This document shows positions 5,346-10,466 of a DNA stretch of 37,597 nucleotides, piece by piece. The notes under the pieces were generated by a model. It did no database searches and was not told the DNA's origin. It saw only the letters and a list, made by a program, of their open reading frames with translations. The translations under genes and the position numbers were made by a program. How positions within the stretch are numbered: position 1 is the stretch's first letter; each line of letters starts with the position of its first letter. Origin of the DNA: Myxococcales bacterium (lineage in GTDB: Bacteria; Myxococcota_A; Polyangia; GCA-2747355); the NCBI GenBank assembly GCA_020431405.1, contig JAGQIK010000339.1:1-37597 (forward strand), read 5' to 3'.

Positions 5346-6922
5346 TGTTCTCTTCTTTGGGACTGCTCGCGCTGGCGGTCGTCGGCGCGCCGCTGTTCTT
5401 GATCATCGCGGCCTCGGCGCTGGTCGGCTTCGCGTCGATCGGGCGGCCGGCGGCCGACGTCACGGGCGAGATCAGCAAGCTCGTCCAGATGGACACGCTG
5501 ATCACGATCCCGCTCTTCACCTTCGCCGGCTACCTGCTCGCCGAGAGCGGCGCGCCGCGGCGTCTGGTCGCCGTCACGCGCGCGCTGTTCGGCTGGGCGC
5601 CGGGCGGCATGGCGGTGGTGACGCTGCTGACGTGCGCCTTCTTCACCACGTTCACCGGCGCGTCGGGCATCACCATCGTCGCGCTCGGCGGGCTGCTGCT
5701 GCCGATGCTGCTGCAGCAGGGATACGACCGCAACTTCACGCTAGGCCTGATCTCGACGTCGGGCAGCCGCGGGCTCGTCTTTCCGCCGAGCCTGCCGGTG
5801 ATCATCTACGGCTACGTCGCGGCGGTCGACATCACCAAGCTCTACATCGCGGGCATCGTGCCGGGGCTCATCGACGTCGGCATCGTCGCGATCTTCTGCG
5901 TGCGCGCCGGCATCCTCTCCAAGGTGCCGCGCACCAAGTTCAGCGCCGGCGAGGCAGGGCGCGCGATCTTCAAGGCGCTGCCCGAGGTGCTGCTGCCCGT
6001 GTGGCTGGTGGCGCTGATCCTCACCGGCGTGCTCAAGGTGCCCGAGGCGGCGGCGATGACGGCGCTCTACGTGCTGATCGTCGAGGTCGTGATCTACCGC
6101 GACGTGCACCCCTTCAAGGACCTGCCGCGCATCACCAAAGAGTCGATGGTGCTCTGCGGCGCGATCCTGATCATCCTCGGCGCGTCGCTGGGCATGACCA
6201 ACTACCTGGTCCAGAAGGGCATCCCGCAGGCGATCGTCACGACCATGAGCAAGGCGATCCCCAACAAGTGGATCTTCCTCGCCGCGCTCAACGTGTTCTT
6301 GCTGATCGTCGGCTGCATGATGGACATCTTCTCGGCCATCGTCGTCGTCGTGCCGCTGCTCACGCCGCTCGCCGCCGAGTTCGGCGTGCACCCGATCCAC
6401 CTCGCCATCATCTTCCTGATCAATCTGGAGCTCGGCTACAACACGCCGCCGGTCGGCATGAACCTCTTCATCGCCTCGTTCCGCTTCAGACAACCGATCA
6501 TGCGCCTCTACCGCGCCTCGATGCCCTTCGTGCTGCTGGCGCTGATCGCCCTCGGCACGATCACCTATATCGAATCGCTCTCGACCTTCACCGTCCCCAA
6601 AGGCCAGGCCACCGTGAAGGGCGGTTTGATCACGCAGCCGACCAAGAAGGCGTCGGCAGGCACGGCCGCCGGCACCGGCAGCGGCTCGGGTAAGAAGGCC
6701 AAGAAGCCGATGATGGACGGCATCTGCGATCCCAAGGTCAAGGGCGACCCCGACTGCGATGACATCGACGTCGACGACGACATCGATGGCAAGAAGAAGG
6801 GCACGGGCACGGGCACGGGCACGGGCACAGGGTCGGGCACGGGCACAGGCACAGGCACGGGGTCGGGCACGGGCACAGGCACGGGGTCGGGCACGGGCAC
6901 GGGGTCGGGCACCGCGAGCTGA
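5345..6922 (+). CDS. dctM: TRAP transporter large permease, DctM family, with Gly-Thr/Gly-Ser tail
   Basis: A 525-residue polytopic inner-membrane protein. About 420 residues form the DctM ion-transporter core, with typical segments such as FTGASGITIVALGGLLLPML, GLVFPPSLPVIIYG, GCMMDIFSAIVVVVPLLTPLA and LGYNTPPVGMNLFIASF. DctM carries out sodium- or proton-driven uptake together with DctQ and DctP. Known DctM proteins are about 430 residues; here roughly 100 extra residues follow the last span. The extension contains a short segment with two Cys and many Asp (near residues 458-480), then Lys-Lys-Lys and about 40 residues made almost only of Gly-Thr and Gly-Ser pairs. The start GTG 5345 overlaps the dctQ stop. 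It is the last gene of the transporter operon. Confidence 0.93.
   Translation: MFSSLGLLALAVVGAPLFLIIAASALVGFASIGRPAADVTGEISKLVQMDTLITIPLFTFAGYLLAESGAPRRLVAVTRALFGWAPGGMAVVTLLTCAFFTTFTGASGITIVALGGLLLPMLLQQGYDRNFTLGLISTSGSRGLVFPPSLPVIIYGYVAAVDITKLYIAGIVPGLIDVGIVAIFCVRAGILSKVPRTKFSAGEAGRAIFKALPEVLLPVWLVALILTGVLKVPEAAAMTALYVLIVEVVIYRDVHPFKDLPRITKESMVLCGAILIILGASLGMTNYLVQKGIPQAIVTTMSKAIPNKWIFLAALNVFLLIVGCMMDIFSAIVVVVPLLTPLAAEFGVHPIHLAIIFLINLELGYNTPPVGMNLFIASFRFRQPIMRLYRASMPFVLLALIALGTITYIESLSTFTVPKGQATVKGGLITQPTKKASAGTAAGTGSGSGKKAKKPMMDGICDPKVKGDPDCDDIDVDDDIDGKKKGTGTGTGTGTGSGTGTGTGTGSGTGTGTGSGTGTGSGTAS
6800..6919 (+). repeat. Hexanucleotide repeat coding the DctM tail, arranged 5-4-3-2-1
   Basis: Twenty six-base units fill this stretch. 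GGCACG, GGCACA or GGCACC code Gly-Thr and GGGTCG codes Gly-Ser. The order is five Gly-Thr then Gly-Ser, four then Gly-Ser, three then Gly-Ser, two then Gly-Ser, and one followed by Ala-Ser and the stop. Slippage by whole units would keep the reading frame, so the tail length could vary between strains. Confidence 0.95.
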
Positions 6923-7047: not shown

Positions 7048-8439
7048 ATGCACTGCTCGGCTATCACGCGCGCCACGTGGGTTGCGCTCCTGCTCCTGGG
7101 CGCCGCTGCCTGCGGCGAAGGTGCGCTGTTCCGTGGCGCCGCGCCACCCGACGATGCGGCAGCCGCGCCTGACGCGCGCGATGACTGGCGCACGACGCCG
7201 ACGCCGACGCCGCCGCCAACCCCTGACGCGACGCTGCCAACACCCGACGCGCTGCCGCGCGACAGCGCCGCGGTGCCGCGCGATAGCGCCGCGAAGAAGC
7301 AGGACAGCGCCGCCAAGAAGCAAGACAGCGCCCCACCGCCAGCACCGCCGCCGCCACCGCCGCCGCCACCGCCACCGCCGCCACCGCCGCCGCCGCCGCC
7401 ACCAACGACGGTGCACTCGGGGCCGAGCGCGGTGAGCCTCGCCAAGGCCGCTACGCCGTGGCCGGCGCCCAGCGGCAGCTTCTATCGCTACGCGCCGACC
7501 GCCATCGAAGAGGGCGGCTATCGCTACACCTACTGGTGCGCCAACACGCAGAGCGGCAACGTCACCGACTCGATCGTCGTGCGCCGCGACCAGCGGAACG
7601 GAAGCAGCTGGAGCGTGGGCAGCGAGAAGGTCGCGCTCGGCCCCGGCGCGGCTGGCCGCTGGGACCATCGCCATGTCTGTGATCCCGACGTCGTGCGCGG
7701 CCGCTTCGTGTTCGGCGGCGCGACGTACGCCTACGCGCTCTTTTACACCGGGCTCGACAAGGAGCAGAGCCAGGGCGGCGTCAATCGCGTCGGCTGGGCC
7801 GTGTCCAACAGCCTGCTCGGTCCCTTCACGCGCGTCAGCGTCAGTGCGGCGCTGGTCAGCTCGGGCCAGTGGTGGGGCGTGGGTCAACCATCGGTGACGT
7901 CCATCGACGGCGCGGGCAAGCTGCTGCTGTTCTACACGCGCGGCGATCAGAACGGCACGCGCACGCTGCGTCGGCAGGTCGACCTATCCAACGCCAGCAA
8001 GCCCGTGCTCGGCGCCGAGCTCGAGCTGCCCACGGCCGGCCTCGCGCGCATCGGCGGCGGCGCCGACGGCGCCAACCACGGCGGCGCGCTGATCTACGAT
8101 CCCACGCGCGACATCTTCTGGCTCGTGCGCGGCGCACATCCCTTCCCCAGCAGCTGCCCCGACTTCATCTCCAGCCAGCTGCAGATCGCCACCATCGCGG
8201 GCGCGTCGATCTGGAGCGGCAAGGGCAACTGGACCGTGCACGCCAACATCACGGGCGCGCTGATGAGCGGCGCCGCGCGCGTCTTCGACGGCGGCTTCGC
8301 CAAGGGGCCGTTCGGCAACCCACTCGCGAACAACCGCGTCGACGTCATCGCCTCGACCAGCACGGCCTGCGGCAGCGGCAACAACTTCGCCACCGCGCTG
8401 TGGAGCTACCGCACGCACGGCGTGACGGTCAGCTTCTAA
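7048..8439 (+). CDS. Proline-rich lipoprotein with glycosidase-like beta-propeller domain
   Basis: A 463-residue predicted lipoprotein. The signal peptide ends in LLLGAAAC with Cys22 as the likely lipidated residue. Residues 30-70 are rich in Ala, Pro and Asp. Residues 71-95 hold four copies of a DSAA-type repeat, and residues 100-119 are twenty consecutive prolines, forming a long spacer. The globular part (about 125-463) has repeated beta-strand signatures with aromatic and DPD motifs (HRHVCDPDV, YALFYTG, GQPSV, GALIYDP, DIFWLVRGA), reminiscent of five-bladed propellers of the GH43/GH32 group. I cannot assign catalytic residues, so it may be a carbohydrate-binding or degraded-enzyme protein. 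It lies 125 bases behind dctM and could be co-transcribed or independent. Fold assignment is tentative. Confidence 0.7.
   Translation: MHCSAITRATWVALLLLGAAACGEGALFRGAAPPDDAAAAPDARDDWRTTPTPTPPPTPDATLPTPDALPRDSAAVPRDSAAKKQDSAAKKQDSAPPPAPPPPPPPPPPPPPPPPPPPPTTVHSGPSAVSLAKAATPWPAPSGSFYRYAPTAIEEGGYRYTYWCANTQSGNVTDSIVVRRDQRNGSSWSVGSEKVALGPGAAGRWDHRHVCDPDVVRGRFVFGGATYAYALFYTGLDKEQSQGGVNRVGWAVSNSLLGPFTRVSVSAALVSSGQWWGVGQPSVTSIDGAGKLLLFYTRGDQNGTRTLRRQVDLSNASKPVLGAELELPTAGLARIGGGADGANHGGALIYDPTRDIFWLVRGAHPFPSSCPDFISSQLQIATIAGASIWSGKGNWTVHANITGALMSGAARVFDGGFAKGPFGNPLANNRVDVIASTSTACGSGNNFATALWSYRTHGVTVSF
7258..7404 (+). repeat. Tandem DSAA-coding repeats followed by CCG/CCA polyproline tract
   Basis: Roughly 21-base units coding xxxDSAA occur four times at about 7258-7332. 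They are followed by an almost pure CCG/CCA run coding 20 prolines at 7345-7404. Both lie within the lipoprotein gene and form the presumed cell-surface stalk. Confidence 0.85.
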
Positions 8440-8458: not shown

Positions 8459-9451
8459 TCACCCGCGCCGCACCGACTCGGGCGTCGTGCCGGTCCAGCT
8501 GTTGAAGGCGCGAAAGAACGAGTTGGGGTCCTCGTATCCGAGCAAGAAGGAGATCTCGGCGCCGGAGAGCTCCGTCGACGTGAGGTAGTGCGTGGCGAGC
8601 CGCTCGCGCGTGTCGTCGAGGATCGCCTGAAAGCTCGAGCCTTCGCTCTTGAGCCGGCGCCGCAGCGTGCGCGCGCTGGTGCCGAGCCGGCCGGCGACGC
8701 TGTCGAGCGAGGCGCCGCCGCTGGGCAGCAGCTCGAGCAGCGCAGAGCCGACCTTGTCGCGGGTGCTCGCCTGCTCTGTCAGCTCGGCGAGGGTCTTCTT
8801 GAGCTGCGGCTCGAAGAGGTTCCACATCGCTTCGTTGGCGGTGAGAAACGGCCGTCGCGCGTCGACGCCGGAAAAGACCATGCTCGCGTACGCGCCTTGC
8901 GCGAGCGCCACGCCGAAGAACTTCTTGTACGTCGCGCGGCGCTTCGGCAGCGCCGGGCAGCGCACCTCGAGCGGCACCAGGCGCTCGCGCGTGCCGATAC
9001 GCGCCAGCTGCAGCAGATAGACGAGCTTGCACAGCGCCAGCGATGGCGGTGGATCGGGCTCGTCCGACGGCCAACGCACGCGCAGCGCCGTGCGCTCCTC
9101 GTCGATCTCGACGTCGAGCGTGAGCTCGGCGATGAGTCGCTTGTACTGCGCCACGCGGCGCAGCGCGACGTTGAGGTCCGGGCTGCACAGCGCCGCGAAC
9201 ACCGGAGGATCGAACGCCTCCACCGAGATAGCCGCGCCGATGCGCAGCGCTAGGTCTTCGTCGCCGGCGACCTCCTGCTCGAGGCTCGACCACAGACGAA
9301 AGAACTCGTCGGTGCTCAGCGCGGCGCGCTCGCGCGCGAACAGATCGCCCGGCAGCTCGGCGCGCCGCAGCACGTTGGACGGAAACACACCGAGGTCGGC
9401 GAGCAGCACCTTCCATGCGGGCGTTACGAAGTACGGCTTGTGCACGGCCAC
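8459..9451 (-). CDS. AraC-family transcriptional regulator (arabinose-binding-like N-domain)
   Basis: A 330-residue DNA-binding regulator. The N-terminal two-thirds resembles the ligand-binding domain of the OruR/ArgR-like AraC subgroup (LSTDEFFRLWSSLEQEVAGDEDLALRIG). The C-terminal 80 residues form the double helix-turn-helix, with LDSVAGRLGTSARTLRRRLK as the first helix-turn-helix and EISFLLGYEDPNSFFRAFNSW as the second. I chose GTG 9451 because a GAGGGGG ribosome site lies upstream and because a longer in-frame ATG at 9541 would place an 82-bp palindrome inside the coding region. The gene is divergent from a short-chain dehydrogenase, with about 200 bases between them. That layout usually means the regulator controls the neighbour, and often itself. 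The inducer is unknown. Confidence 0.92.
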   Translation of the reverse strand: MAVHKPYFVTPAWKVLLADLGVFPSNVLRRAELPGDLFARERAALSTDEFFRLWSSLEQEVAGDEDLALRIGAAISVEAFDPPVFAALCSPDLNVALRRVAQYKRLIAELTLDVEIDEERTALRVRWPSDEPDPPPSLALCKLVYLLQLARIGTRERLVPLEVRCPALPKRRATYKKFFGVALAQGAYASMVFSGVDARRPFLTANEAMWNLFEPQLKKTLAELTEQASTRDKVGSALLELLPSGGASLDSVAGRLGTSARTLRRRLKSEGSSFQAILDDTRERLATHYLTSTELSGAEISFLLGYEDPNSFFRAFNSWTGTTPESVRRG

Positions 9452-9498
9452 GCGGACACCCCCTCGTATCGTTGTAGCAGCTCGACCGTCGCCACAGA

Positions 9499-9580
9499 CT
9501 AGCCGATCCGGCCAAGTCGCCAACAGATCCGGCCACACCATTCTGGCCAGATCCGCATGCCGGTTGTCCTGATCGGCTAG
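9499..9580. promoter_or_regulatory. 82-bp imperfect palindrome, probable operator region between araC-type gene and SDR
   Basis: The segment is symmetric about position 9539.5. The ends are a perfect 10-base inverted repeat, CTAGCCGATC at 9499-9508 and GATCGGCTAG at 9571-9580. An inner pair is GATCCGGCCA at 9526-9535 and TGGCCAGATC at 9544-9553. GATCCGGCCA also occurs at 9505-9514, exactly 21 bases from the inner copy, and its mirror at 9565-9574 matches 8 of 10. There are therefore four half-sites, two per arm on the same helix face. This fits cooperative binding by the adjacent AraC-family dimer. Confidence 0.75.
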
Positions 9581-9650
9581 AGAACGGCGCTGGCCGAGCG
9601 ACTACCCTGTGCTAACAAACGCAAACACCGCCACGGAAGGAGGGCTCACC

Positions 9651-10466
9651 ATGTCGAAGACGATCCTGATCACCGGTGCCAGCAGCGGCATCGGAAAGGC
9701 CACGGCCAAGAGGTTTCAGCGCGAGGGCTGGAACGTCGTCGCGACCATGCGCTCGCCCGACAAGGAGAGCGATCTTCGCGAGCTCGACAACGTGCTCCTC
9801 ACGCGCCTCGACGTGCTCGACACGGCGTCGATCGAAGCGGCGGTGGAGGCAGGCATCTCCAAGTTCGGCCGCATCGACGTGCTGCTGAACAACGCCGGCT
9901 ACGGCGCCTACGGCGTGCTCGAGGCGACGTCCGCCGACAAGATCCGCCGCCAGTTCGACACCAACGTGCTCGGCCTGCTCGAGGTCAGCAAGGCGGTGAT
10001 CCCGCACTTTCGCGAGAACAAGCAGGGCATGATCATCAACGTCTCGTCGATGGGCGGCAAGATCACGCTGCCTCTCGGCACGCTCTATCACGGCACCAAG
10101 TTCGCTGTGGAAGGGCTCAGCGAGGCGCTCTCCTACGAGATGGCGAGCATCGGCGTGCGCGTCAAGCTCGTCGAGCCCGGCGGCGTGAAGACCGACTTCG
10201 GCGGCCGGTCCTTCGACTTCACCAACGACGAGTCGCTCGCCGAGTACCAGCCGCTGGTCGGCAAGGTCATGGCGGCGTTCGGGCCGTTGATGGCCAACTC
10301 GATCGAAGCCGACGTGGTCGCCGACACGATCCACCGCGCCGCCACCGACGAGAGCGCGCAGCTGCGCTACGTCGTCGGCGACGACGCCAAGAAGCTCATC
10401 GAGATGCGCAAGACGATGGACGACACCGCCTACAGAGCCAACGTCGCAGCCCTCTTCAAGCTCTAG
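9651..10466 (+). CDS. Short-chain dehydrogenase/reductase (classical SDR)
   Basis: A 271-residue NAD(P)-dependent oxidoreductase. The cofactor loop TGASSGIG is at 8-15, NNAG at 80-83, the catalytic Ser near 133, Tyr146 and Lys150 (YHGTK), and the PGGVKTDF segment follows, as in classical SDRs. ATG 9651 has an AGGAGGG ribosome site at the right distance and gives the canonical N-terminus MSKTILITGA. The substrate cannot be deduced. The gene is divergent from the AraC-type regulator across the palindromic region and is probably its target. It converges on the small secreted-protein gene to its right, with only ten bases between the two stops. Confidence 0.93.
   Translation: MSKTILITGASSGIGKATAKRFQREGWNVVATMRSPDKESDLRELDNVLLTRLDVLDTASIEAAVEAGISKFGRIDVLLNNAGYGAYGVLEATSADKIRRQFDTNVLGLLEVSKAVIPHFRENKQGMIINVSSMGGKITLPLGTLYHGTKFAVEGLSEALSYEMASIGVRVKLVEPGGVKTDFGGRSFDFTNDESLAEYQPLVGKVMAAFGPLMANSIEADVVADTIHRAATDESAQLRYVVGDDAKKLIEMRKTMDDTAYRANVAALFKL

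Follow-up and report, generated by a model that had tools for sequence, protein, structure and literature searches.

Putative back-to-back operators of the AraC/XylS type between a divergent araC gene and a short-chain dehydrogenase gene in a Myxococcales bacterium

The divergent locus and its repeats

The stretch of DNA analysed here, henceforth called the window, comprises 37,597 nucleotides of a Myxococcales bacterium (contig JAGQIK010000339.1 of the assembly GCA_020431405.1) and contains two divergently transcribed genes with a short intergenic region between them. The left gene (8459-9451, minus strand) starts with GTG, is preceded by GAGGGGG on the same strand (9459-9465), and encodes an AraC-family regulator of 330 amino acids, which combines an N-terminal Arabinose_bd domain (PF12625, E 1.8e-25) with a C-terminal HTH_18 domain (E 4.6e-17), both above the gathering scores. 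The nearest solved structure is that of VirS (8rcx). An equivalog identity with GliR, QhpR or CypR was considered and rejected, as the regulator does not reach the curated NCBIfam cut-offs of these models (104 of 570, 143 of 250 and 98 of 500 bits, respectively). The right gene (9651-10466, plus strand) starts with ATG, carries AAGGAGGG upstream of it (9637-9644, plus strand), and encodes a classical short-chain dehydrogenase/reductase (SDR) of 271 amino acids (PF00106, E 5e-49). Elsewhere in the window we noted a low-complexity C-terminus rich in Gly, Ser and Thr (6650-6922) in an open reading frame that resembles, by eye, a DctM-like transporter, as well as a long proline tract (7300-7420) in the open reading frame 7048-8439, which has no Pfam match.

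Between the two genes lies an interrupted palindrome of 82 bp (9499-9580, centre at 9539.5), whose arms agree at 28 of 41 positions, with identity at all ten of the outermost ones. In the rest of the window no centre exceeds 25 arm matches, and the best among 2000 Markov shuffles of the 200-bp gap attains 23. The initial annotation had described such a palindrome with a 21-base spacing of half-sites, and it was right as to both its existence and its position. The element GATCCGGCCA is present exactly at 9505-9514 and at 9526-9535, i.e. with a period of 21 bp, while the right arm contains, on the opposite strand, GATCTGGCCA and GATCAGGACA, again 21 bp apart; two of the four copies are exact, and the other two show one and two differences. 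When the whole 11.2-Mb genome was searched for the paired pattern free of mismatches, only these two places in the window were found.

The half-sites were at one stage read inward (TAGC-N7-GCCA, similar to araI), and this reading was replaced by the outward one after the offset of the -10 elements described below had emerged. Read toward the gene, the half-site has the form TTGGC-N6-GGCTAG, reminiscent of that of XylS (TGCA-N6-GGNTA). According to the arm identity, the shuffles and the analysis of the half-sites, the arms appear to be two standard direct-repeat operators of the AraC/XylS type, placed back to back and reading outward, with a gap of only 6 bp (9537-9542) between them. Each of these putative operators consists of two half-sites of 17 bp with a period of 21 bp. 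On the minus strand, the araC-facing operator comprises the promoter-proximal half-site TTGGCCGGATCGGCTAG (9499-9515), whose motif and 21-bp spacing are kept in orthologues, and the distal half-site GTGGCCGGATCTGTTGG (9520-9536). On the plus strand, the half-site analysis assigns to the SDR-facing operator the distal half-site CTGGCCAGATCCGCATG (9543-9559) and the promoter-proximal half-site TTGTCCTGATCGGCTAG (9564-9580). The arms thereby exhibit the direct repeat of half-sites of about 17 bp with a 21-bp period that characterizes class II operators of the AraC/XylS family. It had been argued that AraC-family proteins usually bind shorter repeats and that an operator of this size would be unusual; this argument loses its ground, as each arm has the dimensions of a standard operator.

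Conservation beside orthologues of the regulator

The comparison drew on public genomes and plasmids, from which orthologues sharing 40-57% identity with the regulator were gathered. They come from the phylum of the window itself, from the alpha-, beta- and gammaproteobacteria, and from Chloroflexota and Cyanobacteria. A matrix derived solely from the four half-sites of the window was run over the DNA upstream of 41 other orthologous genes, and the mean score of half-site pairs was maximal at a spacing of 21 bp. As this first set was used to refine the matrix, 26 further loci served as an independent test, and a pair with the spacing of 21 bp was found in 19 of them, while any other spacing between 15 and 30 bp occurred in at most one locus; in about one quarter of these independent loci no pair was found in the DNA examined. 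With the refined matrix, most orthologous loci contain a pair that scores above approximately 20, at exactly 21 bp, compared to shuffled loci, in which the pair score never exceeds 13.2. Most of the distant paralogues (25-37% identity) score 12.3 or less, and five of them share the motif.

The pair is located between -72 and -102 from araC in loci where araC is the first gene of the operon. Where araC is the second gene, the pair lies approximately 0.9-1.25 kb upstream (-900 to -1250), before the first gene of the operon. The pairs are nearly always oriented toward the gene behind them, which in nearly all loci is either araC itself or encodes an SDR or an epimerase-type oxidoreductase. The putative operators, their spacing and orientation, the placement of the -10 elements, the conservation and the association with particular genes can all be read directly from the nucleotide sequences. 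The adjacent AraC protein is most likely the one that binds them, judging from the way in which the motif tracks its orthologues. The proposal of the initial annotation that the region controls both divergent genes is backed by this comparative evidence.

Several loci contain additional half-sites or pairs. L069 contains three 21-bp pairs (at -151, at -86 and at +987, counted from araC), one each for araC, a divergent gene resembling (by eye) DJ-1/PfpI, and a downstream SDR gene, whose product is 55% identical to the SDR of the window. Four loci from Rhodobacteraceae (L008, L009, L010 and L013) have two operators each, with pairs at approximately -100 and at +1014 from araC, one before araC and the other before the next downstream gene, and each is accompanied by a -10-like TTAG/TAA element where one would be expected. 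In L052, L054 and L057 a third tandem half-site extends the 21-bp array toward araC.

The prediction of the regulon in the genome of the window was based on pattern and profile searches. The profile was built from sequence only, from the pair and the -10 element of 31 operators, with those of the window left out. It recognizes the operators of the window weakly (10.5 and 9.2 bits), because TGGCCGG takes the place of the family's TGGCGCG in their half-sites, and partial matches elsewhere in the genome score up to 17 bits. Among the 57 matches with E <= 10 in the whole genome the two operators of the window are absent; they were found when the window alone was searched. This profile is too unspecific for the prediction of the regulon in this genome.

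Promoter elements and the proposed mode of regulation

A hexamer of the form TAnnnT is located at offset +22 from the outer end of the pair in 29 of the 48 operators, and at +21 in six more, compared to approximately zero or one at other offsets; in the independent set it is found at +22 in 16 of 28 operators. In the window a -10-like hexamer is found at +22 on either side, and we regard as candidate -10 elements TACCCT of the SDR promoter (9603-9608, plus strand) and TACAAC of the araC promoter (9471-9476, minus strand), the latter with TA where expected and with C instead of T as its last base. With a spacer of 17 bp and the -10 element at +22, the -35 element would fall on the final base of the pair, which places poor -35 hexamers at 9580-9585 (GAGAAC, plus strand) for the SDR gene and at 9494-9499 (GTCTGT, minus strand) for araC. 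At the base position next to the half-site a weak TG is seen in about 80% of the loci; as TA at +22 was the criterion by which these loci had been selected, only the TG and a T at position +27 are informative. The proximal half-site thus abuts or overlaps the -35 element and the -10 element follows at a fixed distance, as in class II operators, and in lying next to weak -35 elements the predicted operators take the position typical of class II activators. The meaningful biological unit is wider than the palindrome, as it includes, in addition to the 17-bp half-sites, a -10-like hexamer 22 bp outside on each side.

We propose that the intergenic region is very probably a divergent control region, in which two activator operators of the AraC/XylS type stand back to back and serve class II activation of both promoters. 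The neighboring AraC protein of the PF12625 type would bind each direct-repeat pair as one dimer, contacting box A (TGGC) and, 6 bp further, box B (GGCT(A)) in half-sites that lie 21 bp apart on one face of the DNA. The promoter-proximal half-site would adjoin the weak -35 element, with an overlap of about one base, and the -10 element would follow another 22 bp outward. With its ligand, the regulator could recruit RNA polymerase to both promoters in class II fashion, which would switch on the SDR gene and result in positive autoregulation of araC. Activation rather than repression, the use of sigma-70 and a response to a substrate of the SDR are inferred features of this model. As for the suggestion that two dimers bind head to head and that the symmetry is the essence of the site, the two dimers are likely, while the central role of the symmetry finds no support: the pairs read outward, each to its own promoter, and the gap between them varies among loci.

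Back-to-back pairs occur in approximately 13 distinct loci and, with few exceptions, face a divergent SDR gene of varying subfamily; the gaps between the pairs measure 1, 1, 5, 6, 6, 15, 16, 17, 27, 27, 58-59, 69 and 105 bp, while many orthologues possess a single pair only. A single large symmetric operator was rejected on account of these gaps and of the loci with one pair. When the full 82-bp palindrome was sought in the orthologues, the best long dyads were insignificant in most loci, which indicates that the pair rather than the palindrome is conserved. Relatives with the same gene pair do possess the paired operators, but L023 (gap of 6 bp) is the only one that repeats the exact palindromic spacing, and L112 (gap of 5 bp) comes close to it. 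Thus, the conserved unit appears to be the 21-bp pair together with its 22-bp distance to the -10 element, and not the palindromic distance; the 82-bp palindrome of the window is an ordinary by-product of two operators set back to back.

The gaps are also relevant to a cooperative alternative, in which the four sites form one nucleoprotein unit, with the dimers touching across the centre or looping. In such a unit both symmetry and phasing would be important, and the two genes would be switched jointly. The gaps of 5, 6, 6, 15, 16, 17, 27, 27 and 69 bp tend to cluster modulo approximately 10.5-11 bp, against which stand the two gaps of 1 bp, and the Rayleigh test on the de-duplicated set (n = 13) yields p of about 0.03 for a period of 10.5 bp and 0.008 for 11 bp, in a small and partly related sample for which three periods were tried. 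However, two loci have a gap of 1 bp, others have gaps of up to 105 bp, and a single pair suffices for most orthologues, which makes such a unit unlikely. Its more specific form, in which two dimers in contact make up a tetrameric unit that couples both promoters, and in which the phasing of the gap (approximately 6 bp modulo the helical turn) has been selected in several lineages, we consider a speculative option with a modest chance of being correct.

A repressor operator, where the bound regulator would keep the polymerase from one promoter or from both (at the minimum by autorepression of araC) until the ligand releases it, we regard as quite improbable. At its end the araC-facing pair of the window has TAGTCT, which together with TTGGCG 16 bp upstream could constitute an alternative promoter beneath the bound protein, and in orthologues from Rhizobium, Burkholderia and Pantoea a TAnnnT hexamer lies one base beyond the araC-facing pair (TAAAAT, TAAACT or TAGACT at +1 in the plasmid-borne loci L122, L123, L128, L134, L135 and L139). 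The latter arrangement suggests autorepression in the Rhizobium/Burkholderia/Pantoea clade, and autoregulation may be positive in some members of the family and negative in others. On the other hand, the conserved offset of +22 leaves the -10 element free and places the protein on the -35 element, as in class II activators; moreover, the operators of the window are flanked on either side by a -10-like hexamer at +22, and the predicted -35 hexamers are poor. Finally, it is extremely improbable that the palindrome is the site of an unrelated regulator, a hairpin, a terminator or a remnant of a mobile element: the single-stranded DNA folds better than its shuffles (z -3.1), but so does any palindrome, the genome contains a single copy of the repeat, and neither a T-run nor a convergent gene end is present. 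In different phyla the motif accompanies orthologues of the neighboring AraC regulator, and it shifts to the start of the operon when araC is second. The readings as a hairpin, a terminator or a mobile repeat were abandoned.

The activator arrangement favored here amounts to a testable code of operator and promoter (17-bp half-sites, 21-bp period, -10 element at +22) for a widespread subfamily of regulators that is associated with short-chain dehydrogenases and with oxidoreductases of the epimerase type, and of which our literature search found no characterized member. The code permits prediction of regulons and construction of an inducible promoter in a laboratory strain.

Comparison with known systems

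The element in the window is real and well explained, and it represents a known type of operator arrangement. For VirS/mymA, ChnR, QhpR and CmrA our literature search yielded no operator comparison. The ara system of Escherichia coli also has divergent promoters of araC and of the target genes, with pairs of direct-repeat half-sites (araI1-I2 and araO1) of 21-bp period. There, the pair on the araC side (O1) is a repressor site for pC, and activation through the other pair is confined to pBAD, whereas both pairs in the window have the geometry of activator sites.

At the Pm promoter, the proximal repeat of XylS is said, in work by Gonzalez-Perez from 2002, to overlap the -35 element. The XylS repeats are direct repeats of TGCA-N6-GGTA (PMC5481539), and the XylS/Pm system of the Pseudomonas putida TOL plasmid resembles the window in that two direct repeats of TGNN, 6 bp and GGNT(A) are oriented toward the promoter (PMC5481539). 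The window differs from it in the PF12625 ligand domain of the regulator, in the box TGGC, and in the presence of two operators back to back.

The functional sites of AggR lie 21-22 bp upstream of the -10 element, where AggR is thought to contact domain 4 of sigma (PMC6392122). The AggR promoters of enteroaggregative E. coli thus share with the window an AraC-family site at this distance (PMC6392122), but they have a single A/T-rich site, in contrast to the direct-repeat pair described here.

A resemblance in the half-site itself exists to GliR (PA3027) of P. aeruginosa, an AraC-type activator encoded divergently to its target operon (PMC8151288). Its motif determined by ChIP-seq, YYGGCGHTDTYSGMC, with sites such as ATGGCGCGATCGGAC (PMC8151288), is almost identical to the family half-site of the window's regulator, TTGGCGCGATCGGC. 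The target promoter of GliR has one motif upstream and another overlapping the -35 element, and both are needed for full activation (PMC8151288). The two systems differ in that the protein encoded in the window scores below the threshold of the GliR model, and in that its predicted target is an SDR gene, as opposed to the glycerolipid operon of GliR.
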